64,000 nt of DNA, taken from Eubacteriales bacterium mix99 (GTDB lineage: Bacteria; Bacillota; Clostridia; Caldicoprobacterales; DTU083). The first letter of the stretch is position 1. Every line of letters starts with the position of its first letter. Shown here piece by piece: positions 2,647-34,500 of this stretch. The notes under the pieces are model-generated. The model worked only from the letters and a program-made list of their open reading frames with translations. It did not search any database and was not told where the DNA came from. Location: the NCBI GenBank assembly GCA_038396605.1, contig CP121690.1, forward strand, positions 1,892,500-1,956,499, read 5' to 3'. The position numbers were made by a program, and so were the translations under genes.

Positions 2647-4224
2647 GTGAAAAAAGGAAAAAGAGCCGTATGTTGCATATTGTCTCTGCTTTTGGCCGTT
2701 TCTTTTGTGGCTTGTGCAAAATCGGGAGGTGACAGTGAAAAAAAAGAAGCGGATGTTGCGGATAACGTCCGGAGCACAACAGTTCCGAAGTCAGACAAAT
2801 CAGGAGAGGGCTCCGGCAAGAACGACAAGGAGGAAGCCCCGGCAAAGATCAGTATCCTTCTAAGTGGCGACAATACTCCTTCCGCTGACAACCTCGTTTT
2901 AAAAGAGCTTGGCAAACGGACCAATACGATCATTGATATGACATATGTTCCCGGATCCGATCTCAAAACAAAAAAGAGCACGCTGGCGGCATCCGGCACT
3001 TTACCGGATATCTTTGGGACGGACGGAGACGAAGCCCTTGAGTTCAGGGAAGGTGGATTACTTGCCGAGGTAGGGGATTTGGTTGAACAGTATGCTCCCA
3101 ATGTTTTGGATAATGTCGGTGAAAATCTTTCGAAGTCCCCGGTAAATGAGGATGGCATTTACATGATTTTAACTGCCAAACTTCCTTACTGCAAGCAGCT
3201 CAACCTTCGCACCGACTGGCTTGCAAATCTGAAGATGGATATGCCCACCGATCCGGACAGCTTATATGATGTGCTGTATGCATTTACCTTCAAGGACCCG
3301 GACGGCAACGGAAAGAACGATACATTTGGACTTTGTGCCAATGCCAGCCCATCTTCATTCGCATCTGTATTCGGTGCTTACAATATTCCTGTGGGAAAAG
3401 CAATTGAATTGGGAGACGGGACAGTTACATCCTGGGTAAAGCATCCAAAGTTTCTGGAAGCGATGGCCTATATCAATAAACTGAATAAGGACGGACTAAT
3501 TGAACCGGAGTGGGCAACAATTCCCAAGATGGACATGTTTTCAAAATTGTGGAACGGAGTGGCTGGAGGAATAGAATGGGAATGTGTTGGACCGACCAAC
3601 AACTGGATGCCATCCAGATATACGGAAGAAACGCCTCCTACGTTTGATTTTCCCGTCATAAAAGGACCGGAAGGGCATCATGGGACTCCTGCTGCCATGC
3701 CTTCACTGACGACTGGGTATGCGTTTTCATCTAAATGCAAGAATCTTGAGTCGGCGGTAAAGCTGGCCAACTTCTGTATGTCCAAAGAAGGCAGCGAGCT
3801 GCTGTATCTCGGTGTGGAAAACGTTATGTTTAAGTGGACAGACAAGGCAAATGGAGAATATGAATATCTTGGAGAGTACAAGGACAATGCAACACATCGT
3901 GCGGCAGGCGGATTTGTTTACTGGAGCCTTTTTGCACCTGCCATGAATGCGGAGATAGAGACTTTCAATAAGCAAACCCGGGAAGGTGTCGCCCTGGCGC
4001 GGGAAAATGGAATTCCTTATGTCAATATTGTAAAGACTCTGGAAACACGTACCGAATTTGGCACCGACATGGATCAGACCATTGATGAAATGTATGTGGA
4101 TCTGGTGGCAGCAGGCGGCGATCTGAAGCCCATATACGACAACTACATCAAAGAGTGGGAAGAGATCGGCGGAAAGGAATGGGAAGAGGAAGCCACTGAA
4201 GCCTGGAAAGAGCAAGACAAGTGA
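2647..4224 (+). CDS. Extracellular solute-binding lipoprotein of importer 1
   Basis: Lipid-anchored sugar-binding protein of 525 residues that would deliver ligand to the two permeases upstream. A basic, hydrophobic signal peptide ends at a lipobox-like VSFVAC, giving a predicted lipid-modified Cys at residue 23. A charged, Ser/Lys-rich linker follows, then a long type-1 binding-protein fold. Its size fits the large LipO-type binding proteins that accompany LplB/YtcP permeases. The start is GTG, because the ATG two bases earlier runs straight into a stop; GGAGGAA precedes it. It resembles the product of 14455-16023 in layout but has a different sequence. Confidence 0.88.
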   Translation: MKKGKRAVCCILSLLLAVSFVACAKSGGDSEKKEADVADNVRSTTVPKSDKSGEGSGKNDKEEAPAKISILLSGDNTPSADNLVLKELGKRTNTIIDMTYVPGSDLKTKKSTLAASGTLPDIFGTDGDEALEFREGGLLAEVGDLVEQYAPNVLDNVGENLSKSPVNEDGIYMILTAKLPYCKQLNLRTDWLANLKMDMPTDPDSLYDVLYAFTFKDPDGNGKNDTFGLCANASPSSFASVFGAYNIPVGKAIELGDGTVTSWVKHPKFLEAMAYINKLNKDGLIEPEWATIPKMDMFSKLWNGVAGGIEWECVGPTNNWMPSRYTEETPPTFDFPVIKGPEGHHGTPAAMPSLTTGYAFSSKCKNLESAVKLANFCMSKEGSELLYLGVENVMFKWTDKANGEYEYLGEYKDNATHRAAGGFVYWSLFAPAMNAEIETFNKQTREGVALARENGIPYVNIVKTLETRTEFGTDMDQTIDEMYVDLVAAGGDLKPIYDNYIKEWEEIGGKEWEEEATEAWKEQDK

Positions 4225-7606: not shown

Positions 7607-9388
7607 TTACTGCGGAAGATGAGGGATCAGAATGGTTACGGAGGTTCCTTCCTCCGGCGTGGAATCGAAAGTGATCCGGGCCTGATTATCATAGTAAAGC
7701 TTCAGACGGTTGATCACATTTTTAAGTCCGTAACCTCCTGTATCCTGTCCTTCATTCGGGATCTCATCATAGGTCATCAGCCGATAAATGGTAGTCTGAT
7801 TCATACCGATTCCGTTGTCCCGGATGGTAATCCGTATCATGCCTTCGACCGGCTGGACCGAGAGGAAGATGATTCCCTTTTCTTTATCGGAATTGGCGAT
7901 CCCGTGCAGAATGCTGTTTTCAACAATCGGCTGGAGCAGAAGCTTCATGATCCGATAGTCTTCCAGTTCCGGATCCACTTCCGTTTTCAGCTCGATATCC
8001 TTTAAGAAGCGGAGATTCTGGAGCTCAACATAGAGACGAACATGCTCCACTTCATTGGCAATGGAAATGTAATCACTGCCATTGCTCAGACTGATTCGGT
8101 AGAACCGGGATAATTTGATGACAATATCACATACTTCTTCCATATCATTGCGTTTTGCCGTCCAGGAGATGAGATCCAGGGTATTGTACAGGAAATGGGG
8201 ATTGATTTGCGCCTGCAGGACTTTCAGCTCCATGGTATTCAGATTCTTACCCAGTTGGTATTGTTTCTTCATGAGGGAGTTCACCTTTTTTACCATATAA
8301 TTGAAGCTTGTTTGAAGCTCCCCGATTTCATCCGCACTGTCCACAATGCAGTTTACATTGAAATTTCCGCTTTCCACTCCCCGAATCTGTTTTGCCAGAA
8401 GGTTGATTCGTTTTGCGTTCTGTCGTCCATAGAAACAGGACAGACAGTAGACAATGACTCCGGCAATCAGGACCAGCAGGATGAACTGTTTTCTCAGGCC
8501 GGACTGCACGCTTAGCAGATCTTCCATGGAGGATATGGTGATCAGCATCCAGTTATTCCAAAGAGTCGTTCTGCCGATCACATAATCATTGTCCGTTGTA
8601 ATATAGGACGGATCCAGGTTGTGGATCATCTTTTCAGGTATTTCATGGGGAAACAGTTTCTTGTTTGCCGTATAGGAAATCAGGGGGGCATATGCCTGAT
8701 TGGTAATCAGGATTTTTCCTTTTTTGCTGTAATCGGCAGTCTGCATCAGATCCAGAATATCGCCTTCCAGCATGTCCACGCTTATGATGCCGATGAATTC
8801 ATCAAAATTTTTGGGATTCCGTATGGGTACAATGGCGGAAATGAGTCTTTGCTTATCGCTGAGAATGTAGGTGTAATCATAGGGATTCGTAAAATAGATA
8901 ACGGAATAGGATTCCCTCAGGGGTTTTGCCCAGCTTTCTTCCTGGATCTGATCCAGGTTGTAGGTCAGGTCGTTTCGGTCACTGTACAGGAAACCGTTCC
9001 TGACATAGATCCGTATTTTGTAGACGGCATCGGAGTTCCGGAAACGGGCTGCAATAATGTCAAGGTCATTTAAATCCTCGATCTGCTCTGCAATCGGAAC
9101 GGAGTCCGGATCCTTTGCCAGGATCTCCGTGACATTTTTGTTTCTGGACAGGTTCAGGGCGGCATTGGCAATTTCCGTAATCCTCGAGTTTATGGAAGTC
9201 TCTGTCTGACGGAGATACAATTCAGAAAGGGAAATAGACTGGCGTTTGACCATCTGAATATTCTGATAATAGGAATACGTAGTCAACACGATAACCGGCA
9301 GCATAACGATGGCAAACATGGACAGAATCAGTTTGTTTTGGTAAGAGCTGTCCAGATAAGCCCGCTTTATGGAATCCAGCCATTTCAT
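7607..9388 (-). CDS. YesM-type sensor histidine kinase
   Basis: Membrane sensor of 593 residues. A first membrane segment (about 19-40) is followed by an extracellular sensing domain of some 250 residues, a second membrane segment (about 293-312), a HAMP linker, a His-kinase domain with NPHFLYNTLD holding the phospho-accepting His, and a C-terminal ATPase with VENSILHG and DNGIGM boxes. This is the layout of the YesM/LytS-like kinases that sense carbohydrates, often through a binding protein. It lies downstream of its response regulator (125-nt gap) and its ATG is preceded by AAGGAG. It is convergent with operon 1 and probably controls both importers. Confidence 0.9.
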   Translation of the reverse strand: MKWLDSIKRAYLDSSYQNKLILSMFAIVMLPVIVLTTYSYYQNIQMVKRQSISLSELYLRQTETSINSRITEIANAALNLSRNKNVTEILAKDPDSVPIAEQIEDLNDLDIIAARFRNSDAVYKIRIYVRNGFLYSDRNDLTYNLDQIQEESWAKPLRESYSVIYFTNPYDYTYILSDKQRLISAIVPIRNPKNFDEFIGIISVDMLEGDILDLMQTADYSKKGKILITNQAYAPLISYTANKKLFPHEIPEKMIHNLDPSYITTDNDYVIGRTTLWNNWMLITISSMEDLLSVQSGLRKQFILLVLIAGVIVYCLSCFYGRQNAKRINLLAKQIRGVESGNFNVNCIVDSADEIGELQTSFNYMVKKVNSLMKKQYQLGKNLNTMELKVLQAQINPHFLYNTLDLISWTAKRNDMEEVCDIVIKLSRFYRISLSNGSDYISIANEVEHVRLYVELQNLRFLKDIELKTEVDPELEDYRIMKLLLQPIVENSILHGIANSDKEKGIIFLSVQPVEGMIRITIRDNGIGMNQTTIYRLMTYDEIPNEGQDTGGYGLKNVINRLKLYYDNQARITFDSTPEEGTSVTILIPHLPQ

Positions 9389-9513: not shown

Positions 9514-11025
9514 TCAGAGCCTTTTATTGCGGAAGGTACTCGGTGTGACGCCAAAATATTTTGTAAATGTCCGCGTAAAGTAGTTCTGATTGCTGTACCC
9601 CATCTTATCAGAAATCTCCTTGATTTTCATGTTGGTTTGCGTAATCAGCTTTTTGGATTTGTTCATCTTGACTTCCAGAATAAACTGATTGATGGTTCTG
9701 CCGGTCTTGGTTTTATAAAGGTGGCAGAGGTAGGTGGGGGTGATAAACACGTGATCAGCAATCTTTTGAATGCTCAGATCGTTATCGTAGTTTTCCAGAA
9801 TATACTTTTCCGTATCGAAGATAATCCGGCCTTTGTTGTCCAGGTTGTTGATCTCGGATAAAATCTGTTTCAGGAGGCGCATCAGATATTTTTGAATATC
9901 CGTAATCTCCAAAGCGTAGCTAATGGTCTCGGTGACAAAGGACCGCTGCATCCCTTCCTGTCCTTTCAGCTTTTGGTTCAGCCGGAAGGAAATGCTGGCC
10001 AGCTCGTCTTTGATGGCTGGAATGTCTTCCGGACGACATTTCTCCATGTAGTCAATATAATCTTCCAGGAAGTCAATGGCCGTTGCCATATTGTTCACGT
10101 TGATCTGATGGAAGAATCGATTCTCCAGGTCCAGGGAAGGACGGAAAGGTGTCCTGCTCAGGTTTCTGTAAAAAATCTGTTTGCCATAGCCGGTTAAGAA
10201 AGAGGAATGCACCGCCATCCTGGCTTGCTGAAAGGAATCCTTCAGGGTGGCAGCGGATTCCACGGGATTGCTGATCCCCATTGCCATGTGCCGGGCGGCT
10301 CCCCCCGCCAGCCCGAAAAGCCGGTTTAGCTGATGAAAACTTTCCCTGCACTGCATAGGATCCGAAGAGAGGTTGGCATGCAGTATGAGACTGTTGTTCA
10401 GAGGAGAAGCAACATAATGCTTCCGGAAGGCTTCGGAAAGGATCTTTTGAAACTCCGGAAAATAGCGATTAAGCGTAATGGATTCATTTTCCAGTGAGCT
10501 GTCCAGATTCATGTTAAATTTCACGATCACGGTAATCAGGGTATCGTTCAGGGTGATAGGGAGCTTGTTTACATTCGTTTCCGGATGCCATCCCTCCTGG
10601 ATCAGGTTCAAAGCCAGATTATTGTCGGGGATATTCTGCGCTGTGATATGCATCCGGCAGGCTTTTTTTGCCTTTTCCACAGCCTGTATCAATTCCGATA
10701 ATTCCAGAGGCTTGTACAAATAGTCCACTACATTCAGCTTGATTGCCTTTTTCAGGTATTCCTTATCGGAATAACCGCTTATAAAGATTACCTTGATTCC
10801 GGGATAACGGGGCTGGATTTCGCTGATCAATGTAATGCCGTCCATTTTCGGCATACGGATATCGCACAGGATGATATCCGGCCGGATATCCTCGATGAGC
10901 GGATAAGCCTCTAAACCGTCGGAAGCCTCGCCGCAAATCATGACGTCAAGCCGTTCCCAGTTCACAGCAGTTTTAATTCCATATATGGTCGCAGGCTCAT
11001 CTTCTATCACCAGCATTTTGTACAT
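9514..11025 (-). CDS. YesN-type response regulator with AraC DNA-binding domain
   Basis: Cytoplasmic regulator of 503 residues. The N-terminal receiver domain has the acidic pocket (IEDE), the phospho-acceptor Asp55 in CDIRMPKMDG and Lys105 in YKPLE. A long middle region of about 260 residues links it to a C-terminal AraC-type double helix-turn-helix with MGYSNQNYFTRTFTKYFGVT. It pairs with the adjacent YesM-type kinase and should activate sugar-uptake promoters when phosphorylated. It is divergent from importer operon 2, and GGAGGT precedes the ATG. It is the only intact local transcription factor of the sugar locus, since the AraC fragment at 6781 is broken. Confidence 0.92.
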   Translation of the reverse strand: MYKMLVIEDEPATIYGIKTAVNWERLDVMICGEASDGLEAYPLIEDIRPDIILCDIRMPKMDGITLISEIQPRYPGIKVIFISGYSDKEYLKKAIKLNVVDYLYKPLELSELIQAVEKAKKACRMHITAQNIPDNNLALNLIQEGWHPETNVNKLPITLNDTLITVIVKFNMNLDSSLENESITLNRYFPEFQKILSEAFRKHYVASPLNNSLILHANLSSDPMQCRESFHQLNRLFGLAGGAARHMAMGISNPVESAATLKDSFQQARMAVHSSFLTGYGKQIFYRNLSRTPFRPSLDLENRFFHQINVNNMATAIDFLEDYIDYMEKCRPEDIPAIKDELASISFRLNQKLKGQEGMQRSFVTETISYALEITDIQKYLMRLLKQILSEINNLDNKGRIIFDTEKYILENYDNDLSIQKIADHVFITPTYLCHLYKTKTGRTINQFILEVKMNKSKKLITQTNMKIKEISDKMGYSNQNYFTRTFTKYFGVTPSTFRNKRL

Positions 11026-11143
11026 ATATCAACCGACCTCCATGAACACAAACCCAAACAATCCCCAGCCATCCCGAAAAAGTAAGGGCCTTTTTTGTTG
11101 TGCATAAGAAAACTTGTCGAAACGGCATAAATTCACCATAGTT

Positions 11144-11172
11144 ATTATAATATAAGCCACATTTTTTATCAA
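11144..11172 (-). promoter_or_regulatory. Sigma-A promoter of the yesN-yesM operon
   Basis: Read on the minus strand: TTGATA (167-172 of the 11 kb block, i.e. 11167-11172), 17-nt spacer, TATAAT (11144-11149). The leader to the ATG at 11025 is about 115 nt. Confidence 0.7.
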
Positions 11173-11279
11173 CTTGACCGAAGGCCTGAAAAAGCAGGAT
11201 AGTGTAAATAATCAAAAGAAAGCATCAATGTACTGCCCGGCTTATCTTCATTCTTTAAATTTTATGCTAACTTTTAGCG

Positions 11280-11301
11280 GTTAAATATATATATGTTTAA
11301 C
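11280..11301 (+). promoter_or_regulatory. Inverted repeat upstream of importer operon 2
   Basis: GTTAAA (11280-11285) and TTTAAC (11296-11301) flank an AT spacer, about 70-90 nt ahead of the permease start and in the 344-nt divergent region with yesN. It could be an operator for the YesN-type regulator. The plus-strand promoter itself is not clear to me; AT-rich candidates lie at 11310-11335. Confidence 0.4.
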
Positions 11302-11369
11302 AATATGTTAGATAAAATAGTTATATTGGAAGTGGCTCCTGAAATCAAATATGGAACAGAGGGGAAAGA

Positions 11370-12353
11370 ATGAGCAGAGAAACGAAAATGATGAAAAATG
11401 TATCGGCTGTGGGAAGGCCACGGCTCGAAAAAAAGGAATTCTTCGGAAGATATTTTCTTAAGAATTATGACATGTATCTTTTGATGGTCCCGGCATTGGT
11501 GTTTGTAATACTGTTTCATATCATACCCATGTATGGGATTACTCTTGCATTCAAGGACTATAATCTTTTTGCAGCGGACACCCCCTGGAAGTCCATCGGT
11601 GCCAGTCCGTGGGTGGGATTCAAGTATTTTATCAATGTATTTGCCCGTTCGGATTTCAAACGGGCACTGACCAATACACTGCTCATCAGCTTCTACAAGA
11701 TCATCTTTATCTTTCCGATCCCCATTTTGTTTGCGATTTTCCTGAATGAGGTCCGAAGTGTGAAGTTTCAGAAAGGACTGCAGTTGGTTGTCTATCTGCC
11801 GCATTTTCTTTCCTGGGCGGTTGTTGCCGGCCTGTTCGTTACCTTGCTGAGTTCTACGGGGCCTGTCAATAAGATGTTGGTGGATCTGGGATTTGAGAAA
11901 GTGAAGTTTATGATGGACAACAGCGTTTTCCGAAAGGTTCTGATTTTTTCCGATGGGTGGAAGGAAATCGGATGGAGTTCGATTATCTACTTCGCCGCCA
12001 TAGCCGGACTGGATCAGGAATGCTATGAGGCCGCTGTGGTGGACGGTGCCTCCCGTTTCCAGCAGATATGGTATATTACACTGCCGGGACTGCTTCCCAC
12101 TGTGGTCATGATGCTGATCATGCGGATGGGAAGTATTATGGATGCCGGGTTTGGACAGATTTTTGCCATGTATAACCCGACGGTTTATGATTCGGCAGAT
12201 ATCATTGGAACTTATGTATATCGGATGGGCCTTGGCAAGATGGATTTCAGCACCGGCACGGCGGTTGGGCTGTTCAACTCCGTCATTGGACTGATCCTGG
12301 TCCTGTCTTCCAATCGATTTGCCAAAAAGGCCACCGGGAAAAGTATCTGGTAG
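11370..12353 (+). CDS. LplB-type carbohydrate ABC importer permease (second system)
   Basis: A 327-residue inner-membrane permease with about six membrane segments, a basic cytoplasmic N-terminus and the EAA loop YEAAVVDGASRFQQIWYITL (about residue 220). It is clearly paralogous to the permease at 676-1638, sharing the pattern MYGxxxAFKDY near the N-terminus. AGAGGGGAAAG precedes the ATG. It begins operon 2, divergent from yesN-yesM, and its partner permease starts 29 nt downstream. It would import a sugar chain bound by the lipoprotein at 14455-16023. Confidence 0.9.
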   Translation: MSRETKMMKNVSAVGRPRLEKKEFFGRYFLKNYDMYLLMVPALVFVILFHIIPMYGITLAFKDYNLFAADTPWKSIGASPWVGFKYFINVFARSDFKRALTNTLLISFYKIIFIFPIPILFAIFLNEVRSVKFQKGLQLVVYLPHFLSWAVVAGLFVTLLSSTGPVNKMLVDLGFEKVKFMMDNSVFRKVLIFSDGWKEIGWSSIIYFAAIAGLDQECYEAAVVDGASRFQQIWYITLPGLLPTVVMMLIMRMGSIMDAGFGQIFAMYNPTVYDSADIIGTYVYRMGLGKMDFSTGTAVGLFNSVIGLILVLSSNRFAKKATGKSIW

Positions 12354-26588: not shown

Positions 26589-26617
26589 ATTGTACCATGT
26601 AAAGAATTGTTACGCAA
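26589..26617 (-). promoter_or_regulatory. Sigma-A promoter of rpsT
   Basis: Read on the minus strand: TTGCGT (26612-26617), 17-nt spacer, TACAAT (26589-26594). It overlaps the last codons of hypB. Confidence 0.65.
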
Positions 26618-27308
26618 GGGAAAAATCCTGCGTTTCCCCATTCCAGGCACTAACTTCCCTGCGCAGCCAGTCCGCCCATTTGTCGAAGCCTTCGCCTGTT
26701 TTTGCCGAGATTTCAAATATGGCAGCGTTCGGGTTTAATTTGCGGACTCTTTCCTTTACCGCTTCCACGTCGAAATCAAAATAGTCCATGCAGTCAATTT
26801 TATTGATAAGCAACGCATCCACTTCCGAAAACATCAAAGGATATTTCAGTGGCTTGTCGTCTCCTTCCGGCACACTGAGAATCATGGCATTTTTCGATGC
26901 GCCTGTGTCAAACTCAGCAGGGCAGACGAGATTGCCCACGTTTTCCAGGATCAGAAAATCAAGATTTCCGGAATTAATTGCGAGGAGACCCTGTCCCGTC
27001 ATTTCTGCATCCAGATGACAGGCTCCGCCGGTATGGATCTGGATGGTACGGACTCCCGTTTCCGATACTTTCTCGGCATCTACGGCAGAATCAATATCTG
27101 CTTCCATGACTCCAATAGTCATTTCATTCTTTAGCTTTTCAATGGTGCGCAGGACCGTGCAGGTCTTTCCGGAACCCGGAGAAGACATCAGATTGAGCAG
27201 AAAGGTTTTTTCGCCTTTCAGCTGCTTTCTCAGCTTCTCCGCCTGCATATCGTTGTTTTTCAGTACACTTTCCTTTACTTCAATGACTTTCAGCTTTTTA
27301 TTTTCCAT
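26610..27308 (-). CDS. hypB: Nickel-insertion GTPase HypB
   Basis: GTPase that with HypA delivers nickel to [NiFe]-hydrogenase precursors. The 232-residue protein shows the P-loop SSPGSGKT, the metal-linked IHTGGACHLDA, the switch NVGNLVCPAEFDTG and the base-recognition NKID. It lacks the His-rich or Cys-containing N-terminal metal store of some homologues. The gap to hypA is 17 nt. No hypC, D, E, F or hydrogenase gene is in the window, so the client enzyme is encoded elsewhere or is a different nickel enzyme. Confidence 0.93.
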   Translation of the reverse strand: MENKKLKVIEVKESVLKNNDMQAEKLRKQLKGEKTFLLNLMSSPGSGKTCTVLRTIEKLKNEMTIGVMEADIDSAVDAEKVSETGVRTIQIHTGGACHLDAEMTGQGLLAINSGNLDFLILENVGNLVCPAEFDTGASKNAMILSVPEGDDKPLKYPLMFSEVDALLINKIDCMDYFDFDVEAVKERVRKLNPNAAIFEISAKTGEGFDKWADWLRREVSAWNGETQDFSLA

Positions 27309-27325: not shown

Positions 27326-27673
27326 TTATGCTTCATATACTCCGATTTCCTTGATCAGCAGCTCCCTGCCGGAAATGCATTCCCATATGCGGCTTCCGCA
27401 GCGGGGACATTTTGCGTTGCTTTTCACAATGTTGTATACCTTGCCGCAGTCCTGACAAACTCCGTTGCCGGGAATGATTTCGATGATCAGCTCCGCATCC
27501 TCCAGAATCGTCTGCTCCTTTGCCATATCAAAACATTCCTTCATATAGACCGGAATGGCAGTGGACAGCTCCCCGATCTGCAGGACCAGGCTTCCGATTT
27601 TTTCCGCATGGTTTTCCGCTGCGATTTGCTCCACAGTTTCGATCATATTCAGTACGATGCCCATTTCATGCAC
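27326..27673 (-). CDS. hypA: Nickel metallochaperone HypA
   Basis: Binds Ni2+ through the N-terminal Met-His-Glu and hands it to the hydrogenase large subunit with HypB. Visible are MHEMGIVLNMIE and two zinc-binding pairs, CQDC and CPRC, in the C-terminal half. Length 115 is normal. Its first codons overlap the last 8 nt of the large flavoprotein gene, so translation of the two is probably coupled. Confidence 0.94.
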   Translation of the reverse strand: MHEMGIVLNMIETVEQIAAENHAEKIGSLVLQIGELSTAIPVYMKECFDMAKEQTILEDAELIIEIIPGNGVCQDCGKVYNIVKSNAKCPRCGSRIWECISGRELLIKEIGVYEA

Positions 27674-30407
27674 CGGTGTTCCCTCTAAATGTATCCTTCC
27701 TGTTTGCTGTCATAGGGCGGCTTTCCCGTTTCGGATCCCTTCTTATTACATTCTTTGCACTTTTGACGGCAATTCTGGCACCGCGTTTTACCATGCCCGA
27801 GGCAAGGGTCGGCAGAAGCTTCTCAAAAGGCTGTCCGGCAGCATCGTATCGTTTCACCAGGGAAACGGCGTCAAATTTGCATTTCGTTGTGCAGATTCCG
27901 CATCCCACGCACATATATTCGTCAACGACCGTGGCGCCGCATCCAAGGCAGCGTTCCGTTTCCCTTTTGACCTGTTCCTCTGTAAACGCACCACGCAGAT
28001 CCCGGAAAGTTGTTCTGGATTTGCTGTGGTCGACGGATGCAGGTCTTTGCCGGCGGGTGGAGTCATAATCCCCCAGCTCGATATTATCCTTGTCCAGCGC
28101 ATGATACCTTTTCCGGTCGCGGCCGATGGTCAGGCTCTGCCCGGGCTGGACAAAGCGGTGGATGGAAATGGCGCCTTCCTTGCCTGCAGCTATGGCATCT
28201 ATGGCAAATTTCGGCCCGGTCACCACATCTCCGCCAGCAAACACATCGGGCTCCTCGGTCTGCCAGGTAAACGGGTCTGCCTGGACGGTGCCATTCCGGT
28301 TGATGACCAGCCGGCTGTTTTTTGCGAGGTCTCCCCAGTCCATGGACTGTCCGATGGAAAGCAATACGTTGTCCGCATCTGCCAGAACCGTATTGTTCTC
28401 ATCGTATTTCGGGCGGAAACGATGGGCTTCATCAAATACGGAAACGCATTTCATAAATTCCACTGCGGTTACCCGTCCGTTTTCCGTGATCATGCGTTTC
28501 GGTCCCCAGGAATTATGGATGGTGATGCCTTCTGCCGCGGCTTCTTCGGTTTCTTCTTCCAGGGCAGGCATTTCCTCCTGGCTTTCCAGGCAGAACATGT
28601 CAACCGTATCGGCTCCGGCGCGAACGGCAGTCCTTGCAACGTCGACGGCTACATTTCCGCCGCCGATGACCAGGGTCCTGCCCTTCAGCCCGGAGGGCCT
28701 GCCCAGATTGACATTGCGCAGGAATGCGATGCCGGAAACGATCCCTTGCGCCTCTTCTCCTTCGACTCCCAGGCTTCGTCCCGTCTGTGCGCCGATGGCC
28801 AGATAAAATGCTTCATAGCCCTGGCTGCGAAGTTCCTCCAGGCTGATATCCTTTCCCACTTCCGTTTCCATCCGGAAGGTAACCCCCAGTTCCTCTAGAA
28901 TATCAATCTCTGAATGAACCACATCCTTTTCCAGCCGGAAGGAGGGGATCCCCAGTGTCAGCATCCCGCCGGGTACCGGCTGCTTTTCAAATACGGTCAC
29001 ACGATAACCGTCGATTGCCAGAAAGTAGGCACAGGACAGGCCTGCCGGACCGGCACCGATCACGGCAATCTTTTTCCCATAGTGGTGTCGTAATTCCGGT
29101 ACAAAGCGATGCTCTTGCTTCATATCCTGTTCCGCGATGAATTTCTTGATTTCATCAATGGCCACCGGATCATCCACATCTCCCCTGGTACAGGCCGATT
29201 CGCATTTTCTCGGACAGATGCGTCCGCATACCGCCGGGAAGGGGTTTTCCCTTTTGATCAGTTCCAGTGCGTCCCGGTATTTGCCCTGGGCTGCCAGCTT
29301 GATATACCCCTGAATGCCGATATGGGCAGGGCATTCTGTCTTGCAGGGACTGGTACCGCTTTCGGCAACGTCTTCCCTGTCGTTGCGATAGTCCGGATCC
29401 CACTTGTCTTCTCCCCATACCGAATCATACGGCAGATCCCGTTTCTTTTCCGGAAGCGGTGTTTTCGCACAGAGCTTTTGCCCCAGCTTCAAAGCATTCA
29501 TCTGACAGTTTTCAACACATTGCCCGCATGCCACACACTTCTCCGGATCCACATGGGATACGTAATTGGAACGTACCATATCCGGTGTATTGTACAGTTT
29601 GGCAATGCGCAGGGAAAAGCAGGAACAGGAACAGCAATTGCATATGGCGTGCGCATTCCCGTCGCCGTCCACATTGGTGATCTCATGAACCAGGCCGTTT
29701 TCCTCTGCTCGTCTGAGAATGTCGAAGGCTTCTTCTTTTGTGATTCTCCGGGCTTTCCCCGTTCGGACATAGATTTCGGCTCCCTGCCCCAGCTGGATGC
29801 ACATATCCTTTTCCAGATGGCCGCATCCTTCTCCCATGAGCCTTCTGGATCTGCGGCAGGAGCAATCCGTTACTGAGATCATATCGTTTTCATTGATCAG
29901 GCGGGAGACTTCTTCATAGGACGCCGCTCTGGATTCGCTCATTATGGCCTGTTCCACGGGAATGACACGCATGACGCCTTTGCCGGTGGGAAGGTTCGGC
30001 GCCATAATTGCCGTTCTCTGTCGGGTATATTCCTCAAAACATTCTGCGATAACCGGATATTTCTCTACGTTTTTCTTATTGCCCACCATCATTTCCATGA
30101 TTCCCGGAACCCAGATCGGCAGCCAGTAGCCATCGGTTCCGTCGACTGTTTTGATCATGACAACGCCGGCGTCTGCCAGATCCCACAGGAGCTGGCTGGT
30201 CCGTTCCGGGGATTTGCCGCATCTCCCGGCGACTTCTTCCAGAGGCAGACTTTTACGGACCTTCAGGGCAAGGCCCACTTCCGCCATTTCTTCTGTCACC
30301 ACAGGTTCCAGAATCCGATATTCCGGATCCGTCGGCTTGATTCGCAAACCGGTTTTTGATTCCACGGTGATTTTGTTGGCAAGCCGAAGCACTTTCTTTT
30401 TTACCAT
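27666..30407 (-). CDS. Multidomain flavin/iron-sulfur oxidoreductase (GltD-like core)
   Basis: A 913-residue cytoplasmic redox protein. Order: a winged-helix-like segment (about 45-75, PLEEVAGRCGKSPERTSQLL); a Cys-rich domain with TDCSCRRSRR and CNCCSCSC; a ferredoxin motif CVACGQCVENC; a glutamate-synthase small-subunit-like domain with CGRICPRKCESAC, the FAD loop GAGPAGLSCAY and the NAD(P) loop GGGNVAVDVAR; then a C-terminal ferredoxin motif CVGCGICTTKC. It probably moves electrons between NAD(P)H and ferredoxin or an unknown acceptor. ATG at 30407 follows GGAGG; a TTG 15 nt earlier would overlap the ribosome site. Overlap with hypA suggests a link to hydrogen metabolism. Confidence 0.8.
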   Translation of the reverse strand: MVKKKVLRLANKITVESKTGLRIKPTDPEYRILEPVVTEEMAEVGLALKVRKSLPLEEVAGRCGKSPERTSQLLWDLADAGVVMIKTVDGTDGYWLPIWVPGIMEMMVGNKKNVEKYPVIAECFEEYTRQRTAIMAPNLPTGKGVMRVIPVEQAIMSESRAASYEEVSRLINENDMISVTDCSCRRSRRLMGEGCGHLEKDMCIQLGQGAEIYVRTGKARRITKEEAFDILRRAEENGLVHEITNVDGDGNAHAICNCCSCSCFSLRIAKLYNTPDMVRSNYVSHVDPEKCVACGQCVENCQMNALKLGQKLCAKTPLPEKKRDLPYDSVWGEDKWDPDYRNDREDVAESGTSPCKTECPAHIGIQGYIKLAAQGKYRDALELIKRENPFPAVCGRICPRKCESACTRGDVDDPVAIDEIKKFIAEQDMKQEHRFVPELRHHYGKKIAVIGAGPAGLSCAYFLAIDGYRVTVFEKQPVPGGMLTLGIPSFRLEKDVVHSEIDILEELGVTFRMETEVGKDISLEELRSQGYEAFYLAIGAQTGRSLGVEGEEAQGIVSGIAFLRNVNLGRPSGLKGRTLVIGGGNVAVDVARTAVRAGADTVDMFCLESQEEMPALEEETEEAAAEGITIHNSWGPKRMITENGRVTAVEFMKCVSVFDEAHRFRPKYDENNTVLADADNVLLSIGQSMDWGDLAKNSRLVINRNGTVQADPFTWQTEEPDVFAGGDVVTGPKFAIDAIAAGKEGAISIHRFVQPGQSLTIGRDRKRYHALDKDNIELGDYDSTRRQRPASVDHSKSRTTFRDLRGAFTEEQVKRETERCLGCGATVVDEYMCVGCGICTTKCKFDAVSLVKRYDAAGQPFEKLLPTLASGMVKRGARIAVKSAKNVIRRDPKRESRPMTANRKDTFRGNTGA

Positions 30408-30501
30408 GGTACCATCCTCCAAGTTATTCCACCCCTTTTTCTTATTTCTGAACTTCTGAAATCACTTTTTGTTTCTTTGCCTCTTATTCCTGTTGCGTTT
30501 C

Positions 30502-31134
30502 TCAGTCCTTCTCATCTGTCAGCAATCCGTCCAGTATGATGTTGATGCCCTGGACATAGCAGTCCCGGAGCCCCAGATCCAGTTCGTTGATACGCACTTT
30601 TTCCGCCAGCATCAGGATGCCGTCAAACATCGCCCAAAGCGTTACCACGGTCTGGAATATGTTGCCGGCAGGGACGATCCCCTGCTGAATTCCTTTCGCT
30701 ATGGGCTGCTCCAGCTGATGCAGGATGCAGATGCCTTTTTCTTTCAGCCGGCGATCCCCGGCAATGACAGTATTATTGCCCCGTAGCCCTTCGGACAGGA
30801 TCAGATAGTTCGGGTGCTGATGCCGGTAAAAGTTGATGTAGCTGTAAAGGAGAATACAGATACGCCCCCGGAAATCCGTTGCGGGGATATGGAGTGCTTC
30901 ATCAAAGCTGTCCGCCAGAAGGTCCAGGCTTTCTTCGTACAGTGTTTTGAAAAGCTCCTGTTTCCCGTGGGGAAAGGTAAGATAAACGGTGCCTACACTG
31001 AAGTTTGCGGCTTTGGCTATGGCATGAATGGTTGTGCTGCGATAGCCATGAGCTGCAAAAATCGGGCGGGCGGTTTTTAGCAGGGTGCGGCGGCGATCCT
31101 CTTTTTCCTGTTGGGTTGTCTGTTTCCGTGGCAT
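30502..31134 (-). CDS. TetR-family transcriptional regulator
   Basis: A 210-residue repressor. The N-terminal helix-turn-helix (about 15-60) reads AAHGYRSTTIHAIAKAANFS followed by VGTVYLTFPHGKQELF, and the helical C-terminal part binds an unknown ligand. It sits between the ferredoxin-reductase-like gene (upstream) and the 913-residue flavoprotein gene (80 nt downstream), all on the minus strand. It may autoregulate and control this cluster. AAAGGAG precedes the ATG. Confidence 0.9.
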   Translation of the reverse strand: MPRKQTTQQEKEDRRRTLLKTARPIFAAHGYRSTTIHAIAKAANFSVGTVYLTFPHGKQELFKTLYEESLDLLADSFDEALHIPATDFRGRICILLYSYINFYRHQHPNYLILSEGLRGNNTVIAGDRRLKEKGICILHQLEQPIAKGIQQGIVPAGNIFQTVVTLWAMFDGILMLAEKVRINELDLGLRDCYVQGINIILDGLLTDEKD

Positions 31135-31140
31135 GAAGAG

Positions 31141-31215
31141 CTCCTTTGTCCTTGTATTATCATCTCATTATCATCATCTTATCCTATCATCACCTTACCG
31201 CACCATGATACTCAT
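31141..31215 (-). promoter_or_regulatory. GATGATA direct repeats upstream of the TetR gene
   Basis: On the minus strand the gap carries repeated GATGATA/GATAA units (for example GATGATAGGATAAGATGATG) and a nearby pair ATCATGAG/ATCATGG. They precede the TetR start by about 20-80 nt and include a possible -10 box GATAAT. A regulator site is plausible; no clean palindrome was found. Confidence 0.3.
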
Positions 31216-31220
31216 GATCT

Positions 31221-32396
31221 TCACAGAATGGGTATTTTGATGGTCAGATCGCTGACCGGGTATGAAGCGCAGGGATGAAACCATCCCCGCTCCCGGTCCA
31301 TTTTTCGTCTTCCGTCTCCGTCCGGGCATACAAACAGGTTTCCTGAAATAATCTGACTTCTGCAAAATCCGCATTCCCCGCTTCGGCAGTGCGTTCCGAT
31401 GGGGATTCCTGCACGTTCCAGGGAAATTGCCACCGGCTCTTCGGCTTTTGCAGGGAGTGTATCCTCGTGAATTCCCCGCCGGACGGTCAGTTGAAATGTT
31501 TTGCCGATGGCAGCATCCGGAAATCCGGGATATTTTGCAATTTCCTTCGGGGTTCCGAACACTTCACGGCGGATCCGCCTGCGTGGGATTTGCAGCGTTT
31601 TCAGTTCCTTTTCAACAAATTGATACATTGCCTGTGGCCCGCAGATCAAATAGGTGGTGTCCCCTTCTGCGTATTTTCTGATGAGTTCTGCAGTGAGAAA
31701 GCCCTTGTTCCCTTTCCAGGCAGGGTCCTCACTGAGGACATGCACTGTATGGATTTTCGGACCCTCCAGGGCATTCAGCTCATTTCTGAAAATAATGTCA
31801 TCTGCTTTGGCGCTGCCATAAAGTATGGTAAGGTGGAAATCCAGCTTGCCGTAAGCAATTTCCCGTGCCATTGAGTAAAAAGGCGTAATGCCGCTGCCGC
31901 CTGCCAGAGCCACGACGTTTTCAGCGTCCCGCAGGGGCTCGTAATAAAACTGGCCATGGGGCATGGAACCGGTCAGGACATCCCCGGCTTCTACATGACC
32001 GAACAGATAATCCGGCACAAAAGTGCTTCCCTTTTTCCGGACCGTGATCTCCACAAAAGGATTCGGGCCTCGCGCTTCAAACGGAGCGGAAGAAATTGAA
32101 TAAGGCCTTGTTGTGATGGTCTTTCCGATCTGAAAATCCATGCTCAGATACTGCCCTGCCTGGAATACCGGCAGCGGTGTGTCTTGCGGCACGAAGCGGA
32201 AGGCCCGGGCGGTGGGGGATATCTGGCGGATTCTGGTGACCCGGAGTGCAATGGTCCGGGGATGCAGCTTCGCTGCGGTCTCATTGATCGGATCCCGCGT
32301 CATCATCTGACTGCCGGCATGCTGAATAATGGTGCGCCTGCGCCGGGTCACCCGTCCGGCGCCTCCAATATCTTTCAGAAATCCATGTACCTTCAT
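31221..32396 (-). CDS. Ferredoxin-NAD(P)H reductase-like protein with C-terminal 2Fe-2S domain
   Basis: A 391-residue electron-transfer flavoprotein. It has an FAD-binding barrel with TTRPYSISSAPFE, an NAD(P)-binding domain with ALAGGSGITPFYSMA and YLICGPQAMYQF, and a C-terminal plant-type ferredoxin with CRSGECGFC and a later Cys in HPCAS. This order matches hybrid reductases that feed oxygenases or desaturases. The N-terminal 35 residues are extra. Its start overlaps the stop of the CrtI-like gene by 4 nt (ATGA type), so the two should be translated together and probably exchange electrons. Confidence 0.87.
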   Translation of the reverse strand: MKVHGFLKDIGGAGRVTRRRRTIIQHAGSQMMTRDPINETAAKLHPRTIALRVTRIRQISPTARAFRFVPQDTPLPVFQAGQYLSMDFQIGKTITTRPYSISSAPFEARGPNPFVEITVRKKGSTFVPDYLFGHVEAGDVLTGSMPHGQFYYEPLRDAENVVALAGGSGITPFYSMAREIAYGKLDFHLTILYGSAKADDIIFRNELNALEGPKIHTVHVLSEDPAWKGNKGFLTAELIRKYAEGDTTYLICGPQAMYQFVEKELKTLQIPRRRIRREVFGTPKEIAKYPGFPDAAIGKTFQLTVRRGIHEDTLPAKAEEPVAISLERAGIPIGTHCRSGECGFCRSQIISGNLFVCPDGDGRRKMDRERGWFHPCASYPVSDLTIKIPIL

Positions 32397-33931
32397 TTGC
32401 CCGCCTCCCCTGCTGCCACGTCATCCAGAATATTTTTTGCCGCCTTTCTTCCGTTGGTAATGGAAGGAGACATGCCGTTGCCGGAAATGGCATGGGCACC
32501 GGCAAACTCAAGGCCGGAAATGAATCTGTCTTCCTCCTGCATGGCGAGCCGGGCGACAATATTGTCATCCTGGTTGTGTGCAAAACCGTAAATCCCGCCG
32601 TTCCATGCTCCGGTATAGCGGGCAACCGTCATCGGCGTTTCTGTCTCGATCTCCACGATATGATCCAACAGATTCACTCCAAGGATCTTGCTGTATTCTT
32701 CAATCATCTGCTTTGCCACTTTCCGCTTTACGTCATAATAGTCTTCGGCTTTTACCTCAAACCATGGCTCTGCCCTGGGCAGGGAAGTGATGGAGAGCTG
32801 GGTATAGCCCTCCGGCACCGCTTTGGGGTTCGCCATGTTCAGGCATATGACTGCCAGATATTCATAAGGACCGAGGGTCTGAAGCTGCTTCCAGATCTTT
32901 TCGGTATCCATTGTCGGGCCGGTAAACACACTGTAGGAATGAATGTTGAAATTTTCCGGCGTATCATCCAGGATCATGGCAACCGAAAAGCAGGTCAGGG
33001 ACATTTTTCTGCCATTCAGCATCCTGGCAGCGCCCTCCGGCACTTCACTGCGTGGCTCGATCATGGAGGAATAGACCGTGTGGGGATAAGCGCCGCTGAT
33101 TACGTAATCCGCATGGATTTCATCCCCGCGCCGAGTACGGACGCCGTATACCCTGTTGTCCTTTACCAGTATCTTTTCCACCCGCTGGCGGTATTCGATC
33201 TGGACTCCCAGCTCCTCTGCACGTTCCGCCATTGCAAGTGACATTTCATGGGAAAAGCCTCTGCAAATATAGCTGCCGCCGCCGAAATAATCCGCCAGAA
33301 GGACGGCAAACACGGTGAAGGGGAGGGTGGACAGCGGATTTCCCACATAGATCCAATACGGGGACAGGATTTCAATGGCTTCCCTGGAAAAGCCGAAGGT
33401 ATCGAGAACCTCCATGGCGGAGTACCCGGCTGTCCGGACCAGATCCGGATGTTTCAGCAGCATCATGGGCTTGCTCATCGGCGTTACCGATACGATATTT
33501 ACGCTGTCCGTCACGGATTGGCAGAGACGCAGCAGTTTCATCACTTTCTCCCCCTGTCCGGGGCAGCGTGCTTCCACGGCCCGGGCCACCTTCTCAAATC
33601 CCGCCGGGACCGTAACGTCTATCCCGCTGTTTGGGAGTATAACGCGATACGCCTCCGGCACCCGGAGCCAGGTGATGTCCACGCCCATTTCATCAAGGAA
33701 CTTCCGTATTTTAAAGGGATGCTCCTTTGGCCCGATGCTCATCATTTCGTGCAGGGTCGCTTCTATCTCGAATCCGTTTCGGACATAGCTGGTGGCCAGC
33801 CCGCCCGGAAGGTTATGCTGCTCCAGCACAAGCACATCCATGCCCTTTCCGGAGAGGGTCAGGGCACTGGCCAGGCCTGCCAGTGCGCCGCCGATAATTA
33901 TCACATCGTATTGATCCTTAAAAAACTTCAA
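32393..33931 (-). CDS. CrtI/RetSat-like FAD-dependent oxidoreductase
   Basis: A 512-residue flavoprotein of the phytoene desaturase/retinol saturase-like superfamily. The N-terminal motif reads DVIIIGGALAGLASALTLSG, where the third Gly of GxGxxG is Ala, followed by an Glu at the end of the second strand (LVLEQHNLPGGLATS). The C-terminal FAD contact is GLEFAGAHAISGNGMSPSIT. It may saturate or desaturate a lipid or isoprenoid. It overlaps the reductase gene and is preceded by a scar with the tail of another flavoprotein. Confidence 0.82.
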   Translation of the reverse strand: MKFFKDQYDVIIIGGALAGLASALTLSGKGMDVLVLEQHNLPGGLATSYVRNGFEIEATLHEMMSIGPKEHPFKIRKFLDEMGVDITWLRVPEAYRVILPNSGIDVTVPAGFEKVARAVEARCPGQGEKVMKLLRLCQSVTDSVNIVSVTPMSKPMMLLKHPDLVRTAGYSAMEVLDTFGFSREAIEILSPYWIYVGNPLSTLPFTVFAVLLADYFGGGSYICRGFSHEMSLAMAERAEELGVQIEYRQRVEKILVKDNRVYGVRTRRGDEIHADYVISGAYPHTVYSSMIEPRSEVPEGAARMLNGRKMSLTCFSVAMILDDTPENFNIHSYSVFTGPTMDTEKIWKQLQTLGPYEYLAVICLNMANPKAVPEGYTQLSITSLPRAEPWFEVKAEDYYDVKRKVAKQMIEEYSKILGVNLLDHIVEIETETPMTVARYTGAWNGGIYGFAHNQDDNIVARLAMQEEDRFISGLEFAGAHAISGNGMSPSITNGRKAAKNILDDVAAGEAGK

Positions 33932-33954
33932 GGCTTTTGTCTCCTTTTAAGATA

Positions 33955-34190
33955 TTAAAAAAACCGTTCCACAATTCCTTTGGAGTACTCTGCAGTTTCA
34001 TCCATATCGCCGAAGCTCATGACTTCCCCTGCATAATAGGTATTTCGCCTGCCCTGCATGTTTTCCACATTTTCGTACCAGCCTGCCGCGTAATCAGAGG
34101 GGCTTACATGCGGGAAGTAATACCAGCTTTTTTCATTGACGATTTCCTTGATTTCCACTCCGAATCCCTTCATATCCTCCTGAACGAGCC
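33955..34190 (-). pseudogene. C-terminal remnant of an FAD-dependent oxidoreductase
   Basis: Only about the last 78 codons remain, reading SWYYFPHVSPSDYAAGWYEN, then QGRRNTYYAGEVMSFGDMD and a final IVERFF. This is the usual end of a group of amine-oxidase-like FAD proteins. Upstream of about 34190 the frame becomes the antisense of a thioesterase fragment, so the 5' part and promoter are gone. Confidence 0.65.
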
Positions 34191-34194
34191 TGCG

Positions 34195-34500
34195 GCCATG
34201 CCCGAAAGTCTGGTGTTCCCTTCTGTGTTTCCGGAGACGGCCGAACGGACGGTTCAGTACAGCGAAACCGATCTCAACGGGCATATGAACAACAGCTGTT
34301 ATCTAGACTGGATGGATGATTTGCTGGATGTTGCGTTTCATCGCTGCCATATCATCCGCAGTCTGCAGATCAATTTTGTCTCGGAGGTGCAAACCGGTCA
34401 GACGGTGACGATCCATTGGCTTTTAGAGGATCGCCTGCTTTTTGTAAAAGGCTGTTTTGACGGCAGGCAAATCTTTGCTGTCCGCGCCATTTTTCAATAG
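34195..34500 (+). pseudogene. C-terminal remnant of an acyl-ACP thioesterase
   Basis: About 100 codons encode the second hot-dog domain of a FatA/FatB-like thioesterase: RTVQYSETDLNGHMNNSCYL and DWMDDLL are typical. The N-terminal hot-dog domain is missing. An ATG at 34198 has no ribosome site. It begins where the minus-strand flavoprotein remnant ends. Confidence 0.65.

Follow-up and report, generated by a model that had tools for sequence, protein, structure and literature searches.

What substrate is served by a gene pair that encodes a CrtI-like flavoprotein and, immediately behind it, a dedicated NAD(P)H reductase? Such a pair, here called CRT and RED, lies in the 64,000 nt of contig CP121690.1 from Eubacteriales bacterium mix99 that were analysed in this study (the window; positions given are window positions unless a locus is named). 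The original prediction had linked the pair to a TetR gene and a thioesterase fragment, both of which are present where it placed them, and had proposed a lipid or an isoprenoid as substrate. Our study retains the lipid, most likely a polyunsaturated fatty acid (PUFA), and not the isoprenoid or carotenoid, on the basis of the fatty-acid genes that neighbour the pair. We consider it on balance probable that what survives at this locus belonged to an anaerobic island for PUFA isomerisation and hydrogenation, in which CRT-RED would saturate a free unsaturated fatty acid. Three features missed by the original prediction bear on this: the remnant of an isomerase gene, the deletion that joins it to the thioesterase remnant, and a block of IsrA, HypA and HypB genes downstream of TetR.

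The overlap of 4 nt between the two genes was confirmed, with the start of RED (391 aa) sitting within the stop of CRT (512 aa, TTG start) at 32393-32396. RED scored above the Pfam cut-offs for FAD_binding_6, NAD_binding_1 and Fer2, which bears out the flavin and 2Fe-2S domains previously assigned to it, and the cysteines of its cluster ligands (CRxGxC..C) were invariant in 46 aligned sequences. These domains are those of the oxygenase-type NAD(P)H reductases BenC, PaaE and Hcr, and the C-terminal position of the 2Fe-2S domain is the one seen in PaaE and Hcr; the best score of RED against any equivalog model was 118 bits, under the cut-off of 383. Comparison with the congeneric genome gave dN/dS values of 0.12 for CRT and 0.14 for RED, indicating purifying selection on both genes.

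An AlphaFold model of CRT, with 46 aligned relatives as input (pLDDT 90.5), has the amine-oxidase/CrtI fold with an N-terminal FAD domain. Its top solved match was the gamma-carotene desaturase 4rep (Z 37.4, root-mean-square deviation 2.8, 472 residues), and the structural matches also included the fatty-acid isomerase PAI (2b9w, Z 25.2) and 4dgk (Z 23.8). CRT therefore shares its fold and FAD domain with the CrtI/CRTISO/RetSat group, while it differs from CrtI and CRTISO in its family scores, its partner reductase and its fatty-acid neighbourhood. Against crtI_fam (TIGR02734) CRT scored 118.4 bits, the curated cut-off being 238.1, and against carot_isom/CRTISO (TIGR02730) 111.9 bits, the curated cut-off being 586.9; membership of either family was rejected on these scores. 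The desaturase match and the weak crtI_fam and carot_isom matches would suit a reductase or desaturase of some isoprenoid, carotenoid or retinoid-like lipid, but the scores fall far under the cut-offs and the neighbouring genes encode enzymes of fatty-acid metabolism (PAI, acyl ligase, thioesterase, FakA/DegV), so that we judge this substrate class very unlikely. No phytoene or prenyl synthase was found among the annotated neighbours of CRT-RED, and a carotenoid or isoprenoid pathway at the locus was rejected for want of such genes there.

The two genes were seen to form a unit. Relatives were gathered from a scan of named genomes (at least 80 loci) and from whole-genome searches that added more. 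Of the 102 listed CRT genes that score at least 400 bits, a count in which some loci duplicate one another, 95 are followed immediately by RED. The other seven comprise four contig ends (L071, L079, L097 and L122), two genes that are the second CRT of a tandem CRT-RED-CRT arrangement (L042 and L043) and one fusion, in which a Syntrophaceae metagenome-assembled genome (MAG) encodes both partners as a single 916-aa RED-CRT protein (L088:4498-7248). The distance matrices of CRT and RED were correlated at r = 0.88, compared to a maximum of 0.25 among 2000 permutations. Given the natural fusion and the gene overlap, it is very likely that RED supplies electrons to CRT. The adjacency, the fusion and the congruent distances also fit the self-contained electron chain that had been predicted for the pair, leading presumably to a lipid; poor co-occurrence of the two genes, which had been named as grounds for abandoning that prediction, was looked for and 95 of 102 were found adjacent.

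Some arrangements of the pair deserve separate mention. The tandem loci (L042 with L050 in G230, and L043 with L051 in G267) carry two divergent CRT copies, and the fusion in L088 is a ready-made construct for biochemistry. In Natronincola (L087:12710-14650 and 10966-11700), CRT-RED is followed by genes that, read by eye, resemble GntR, short-chain dehydrogenase/reductase and Old Yellow Enzyme genes, possibly a different reductive pathway.

The substrate is indicated by the genes around the pair, beginning with the congeneric genome (G001, Firmicutes bacterium UBA4874; loci L003, L032 and L052). There, CRT has immediately upstream of it a gene for a 455-aa protein homologous to PAI, the PUFA isomerase of Cutibacterium acnes, and residues 36-455 of the L003 protein match PAI (2b9w) with an E value of 2.3e-190, a similarity over the full length. 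By blastn, the window is collinear with L032 up to position 4132, inside the PAI gene, and resumes at 7737, inside the gene for an acyl-ACP (acyl carrier protein) thioesterase. The missing ~3.6 kb held most of PAI, an entire AMP-binding acyl ligase gene and half of the thioesterase gene. Both remnants persist as open frames with little decay, and so the deletion looks recent; a search for a second PAI copy elsewhere in the genome of the window found none. The frame at 33937-34500 on the forward strand scores above the Pfam cut-off for the acyl-ACP thioesterase C-terminal domain, and the thioesterase remnant of the original prediction is thus real, although it is not a standalone feature but one edge of a deletion that also took the isomerase and the acyl ligase.

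Beyond this genus, the order of a divergent thioesterase-ligase pair followed by PAI-CRT-RED recurs in ~30 genomes of Clostridia and Bacilli/Erysipelotrichaceae, most cassettes having the ligase and the thioesterase close by in divergent orientation. In a CRT tree of 95 rows, the window CRT falls in a clade of 37 rows (support 100), with PAI next door in 33; of the members without adjacent PAI, L077, L080 and L085 carry it elsewhere in the genome and L076 lies near a contig end. Judged by their names, 25 of the 36 named records listed in this clade come from the ruminant-gut series RUG and RGIG, such MAGs being abundant in the collection. The cassette isomerases are homologous to C. acnes PAI and keep the residues Arg88, Phe168 and Phe193, which we take to be those of substrate recognition: the corresponding columns (R87, F169 and F194 in the L003 fragment) show no variation among 18 of them, whereas the window retains only the end of such a gene (Table 1). 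Plasmid carriage was rejected, as the matches were weak and did not exceed 31% for PAI or 28% for CRT.

A different neighbourhood points the same way. In three spirochaetes outside the PAI clade, CRT-RED is followed by the fatty-acid kinase gene FakA, with a DegV/FakB-type gene between them in both readable cases (L093 and L096) and a DegV gene nearby in L102; Pfam was run on the proteins of L093, L090 and L102, and those of L096 were assigned by likeness to these. The position beside FakA is therefore independent evidence for a free fatty acid, and it is very likely, as judged from gene context, that CRT-RED acts on a free unsaturated one. A further gene of L093 resembles PlsY by eye. An oxidative role for CRT-RED, as a fatty-acid desaturase, or a role in making structural cell lipids, would be in keeping with CrtI-type enzymes being mostly desaturases and with a thioesterase of the acyl-ACP kind. 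We think this scarcely credible, however, as the fusion of CRT to a pyridine-nucleotide 2Fe-2S reductase points to electron input, and an isomerase of exogenous PUFA, a fatty-acid kinase and the rumen habitat fit uptake and reduction. RetSat provides a precedent for the saturation of a conjugated polyene by enzymes of this fold.

Gene content, conserved order, fusion, deletion, selection and fold are established here, and the features of the locus are collected in Table 1.

Table 1. Features of the CRT-RED locus and its flanks in the window
Feature	Position	Strand	Basis
CRT: CrtI-fold FAD flavoprotein, candidate unsaturated/conjugated fatty-acid reductase	32393..33931	-	Amino_oxidase domain; below CrtI and CRTISO cut-offs; member of PAI clade
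RED: NAD(P)H reductase (FAD and NAD domains, 2Fe-2S domain at the C-terminus), candidate electron donor to CRT	31221..32396	-	Pfam domains, cluster ligands, overlap, fusion in L088
Remnant of PAI-type PUFA isomerase gene, last ~81 codons	33955..34194	-	2b9w, E 1.9e-31; intact orthologue in congeneric genome
Deletion junction, ~3.6 kb relative to congeneric G001 (L032 4132 joined to 7737)	34194..34197	.	blastn, flank sequences
Acyl-ACP thioesterase remnant, C-terminal part	34196..34500	+	Pfam, deletion comparison
TetR-family regulator	30502..31134	-	TetR_N, 45 bits, above Pfam cut-off
IsrA-family oxidoreductase of 918 aa (NAD(P)H/FAD/Fe-S), candidate reductase of conjugated dienes	27666..30422	-	GltD-like core, conserved Cys
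HypA nickel metallochaperone	27326..27673	-	PF01155, 110 bits
HypB nickel GTPase	26610..27308	-	TIGR00073, 256 bits, above cut-off

The block downstream of TetR supplies a second candidate reductase. Its 918-aa protein has a PRK12771-type, GltD/Nfn-like FAD/NAD core at residues 347-857, CxxCxxCxxxC motifs at 296 and 838, and two CxC pairs (C187/C189 and C261/C263) which, together with C208 and C268, are conserved in all 21 of 21 relatives. IsrA, a putative isoprene reductase of Acetobacterium wieringae, is an NADH/FAD protein of ~900 aa with four 4Fe-4S clusters, a six-cysteine site with CxC at 180/182 and 254/256, and HypA and HypB genes adjacent (PMC10134865). The window protein shares its length and GltD-like character, the same 72-residue spacing of the CxC motifs, adjacent HypA/HypB and a nearby TetR gene; unlike the A. 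wieringae operon, the window block stands beside a fatty-acid cassette, with no second HypA or ferredoxin seen. Near IsrA homologues in general, HypA occurs in 73%, HypB in 56%, DUF5692 in 40% and TetR in 21%, and an oleate hydratase gene lies near those of two Acetobacterium species (PMC10134865). No NiFe-hydrogenase large subunit was found in the genome of the window, and HypA and HypB therefore probably serve the 918-aa protein, the same argument having been made for IsrA.

IsrA relatives were found over most of their length in every one of the 23 PAI-clade genomes tested, with a contig end cutting one copy, so that these genomes carry both systems, and an IsrA-like gene lies physically within the cassette at L059-L065, L069, L074 and L076. 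In the genome of L077 the PAI gene is followed directly by an IsrA-like gene. PAI queries also retrieved eight more distant loci in other Bacillota, seven of which have a PAI-like gene (25-32% identity) in one gene run with an IsrA-like gene. HypA is nearly always present at these distant PAI-IsrA loci, HypB at four of seven and a DUF5692-type membrane protein usually, while none of them showed CRT-RED in the ~20 kb covered. Together with the proposal that IsrA reduces an unfunctionalised conjugated diene (PMC10134865), these arrangements would suit IsrA-HypA-HypB as the reductase of conjugated linoleic acid (CLA). CRT-RED would then perform another step on the same fatty acids, either the second reduction, which takes trans-18:1 to 18:0, or an isomerisation (cis/trans or positional) dependent on FAD that RED keeps reduced. 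We regard this division of labour as rather unlikely, since a full-length IsrA-like protein was present in only four of nine CRT-RED genomes tested outside the PAI clade, leaving five in which CRT-RED occurs without it, and since a dedicated NAD(P)H reductase exceeds the expected need of a pure isomerase. Either system can thus be present where the other is absent, and both then stand in fatty-acid contexts.

Other observations concern these IsrA loci. DUF5692 genes lie beside CRT-RED in L123 (10733-11668) and L127 (10708-11664) and beside IsrA elsewhere, e.g. in L151 (4361-5272), which hints at a membrane component common to both systems. A helix-turn-helix protein of ~345-373 aa, with likeness to a transposase-type HTH, is encoded directly upstream of the PAI-like gene in all distant loci examined (L151, L152, L153 and L160-L164), and may be a regulator or the relict of a mobile element. 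The IsrA-like copies of five MAGs (G407, G418, G420, G423 and G424) contain one or more in-frame stops (TGA, TAG, TAA), as could result from assembly errors, read-through past the true end or pseudogene formation.

Returning to CRT-RED as a fatty-acid reductase, we infer the substrate, the reductive direction and the step assigned to each reductase, and propose the following scheme. A PAI-type isomerase would make a conjugated diene from linoleate or linolenate. Electrons would pass from NAD(P)H to the FAD and then the 2Fe-2S cluster of RED, and on to the FAD of CRT, which would saturate a C=C bond in a free unsaturated fatty acid. This acid is most likely the diene made by PAI, so that linoleate would be turned into conjugated linoleate and then into trans-18:1. 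Handling of the fatty acid would fall to the acyl ligase and thioesterase of the cassette, and IsrA-HypA-HypB would be a second C=C reductase, Fe-S based and possibly nickel dependent, with the same intermediate or the one after it as substrate. The purpose could be PUFA detoxification together with electron disposal. The proposed sequence of isomerisation and then reduction fits two earlier descriptions: in C. acnes the c9 bond is isomerised to t10 and the c12 bond is then partly reduced (PMC2885616, citing Verhulst 1987), and the rumenate (CLA) reductase of the rumen uses up NADH 1:1 (PMC4478896, citing Hunter 1976). As the isomerase was lost by deletion, the present strain would either hydrogenate conjugated acids received from its neighbours or harbour a decaying pathway.

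Several points weigh against this scheme. The fold of CRT serves desaturases, isomerases and oxidases too, and IsrA is an equally good candidate for diene reduction; sequence cannot decide which of the two reductases does which step. CRT-RED without PAI is widespread in the tree, and the substrate could differ there. The adjacency and distance correlation of CRT and RED reflect shared ancestry in part. Finally, the isomerase is gone from this genome and the cassette may be non-functional.

The TetR gene, from which the original prediction took its regulatory context, does adjoin the pair, as it does in the congeneric genome, but in no other cassette. Because of this restriction to one genus, the idea that TetR is a conserved component of CRT-RED was rejected; TetR fits better with the IsrA block, given the frequency of TetR genes near IsrA homologues (PMC10134865). 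No palindromic operator was found in 31100-31260, which includes the gap between RED and TetR at 31135-31220, and promoter and terminator scans returned chance-level results. Within that gap, three imperfect, non-palindromic direct repeats of 16 nt (TATCATCATCTTATCC-like) occupy 31155-31200 and are possible regulator sites.

Much of the background to this locus is already known, namely the biohydrogenation activity itself and the PAI, CrtI-fold and IsrA families. A search of the open literature, with subscription journals and preprints mostly outside its coverage, found neither the coupling of PAI to CRT-RED seen in the cassettes, nor the RED-CRT fusion, nor the PAI-like/IsrA-HypAB operons. 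The main caveat on novelty comes from Butyrivibrio fibrisolvens, whose CLA reductase was reportedly described by Hughes (1982) and Fukuda (2007), the latter said to have reported its gene (cla-r). Its presumed reaction is the one proposed for CRT-RED, an NADH-coupled reduction of a conjugated fatty acid; if cla-r is a relative of CRT, part of our finding is already known. The CLA-HY/DH/DC/ER enzymes of Lactiplantibacillus plantarum convert and saturate linoleate via conjugated intermediates (PMC13365329), an overall conversion similar to that proposed for the CRT-RED island and achieved with other enzymes (hydratase, dehydrogenase, decarboxylase and enone reductase).

Ruminal biohydrogenation sets the amounts of polyunsaturated, conjugated and trans fats that enter milk and meat, and the t10,c12 isomer produced by PAI is linked to milk-fat depression. 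The genes behind the process are poorly known: the reductase was reported as not found in databases (PMC4478896), and no linoleate isomerase gene was found in Butyrivibrio (PMC6249431). The cassette offers named, testable genes in many ruminant-gut lineages, and supplies a possible substrate class for the widespread, uncharacterised IsrA family; the strain of the window has kept its reductases and lost its isomerase. We tentatively suggest, as a possibility and with less confidence than for the locus itself, that gut and rumen anaerobes hydrogenate PUFA through a modular island with two chemically different C=C reductases, the flavin-based CRT-RED and the Fe-S, possibly nickel-containing IsrA-HypAB, both fed by PAI-type isomerases. 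If this is true, the two-reductase island would represent the genes behind much of ruminal biohydrogenation, including its trans-10 branch, and much of the IsrA family would have conjugated dienes derived from PUFA as its natural substrate.

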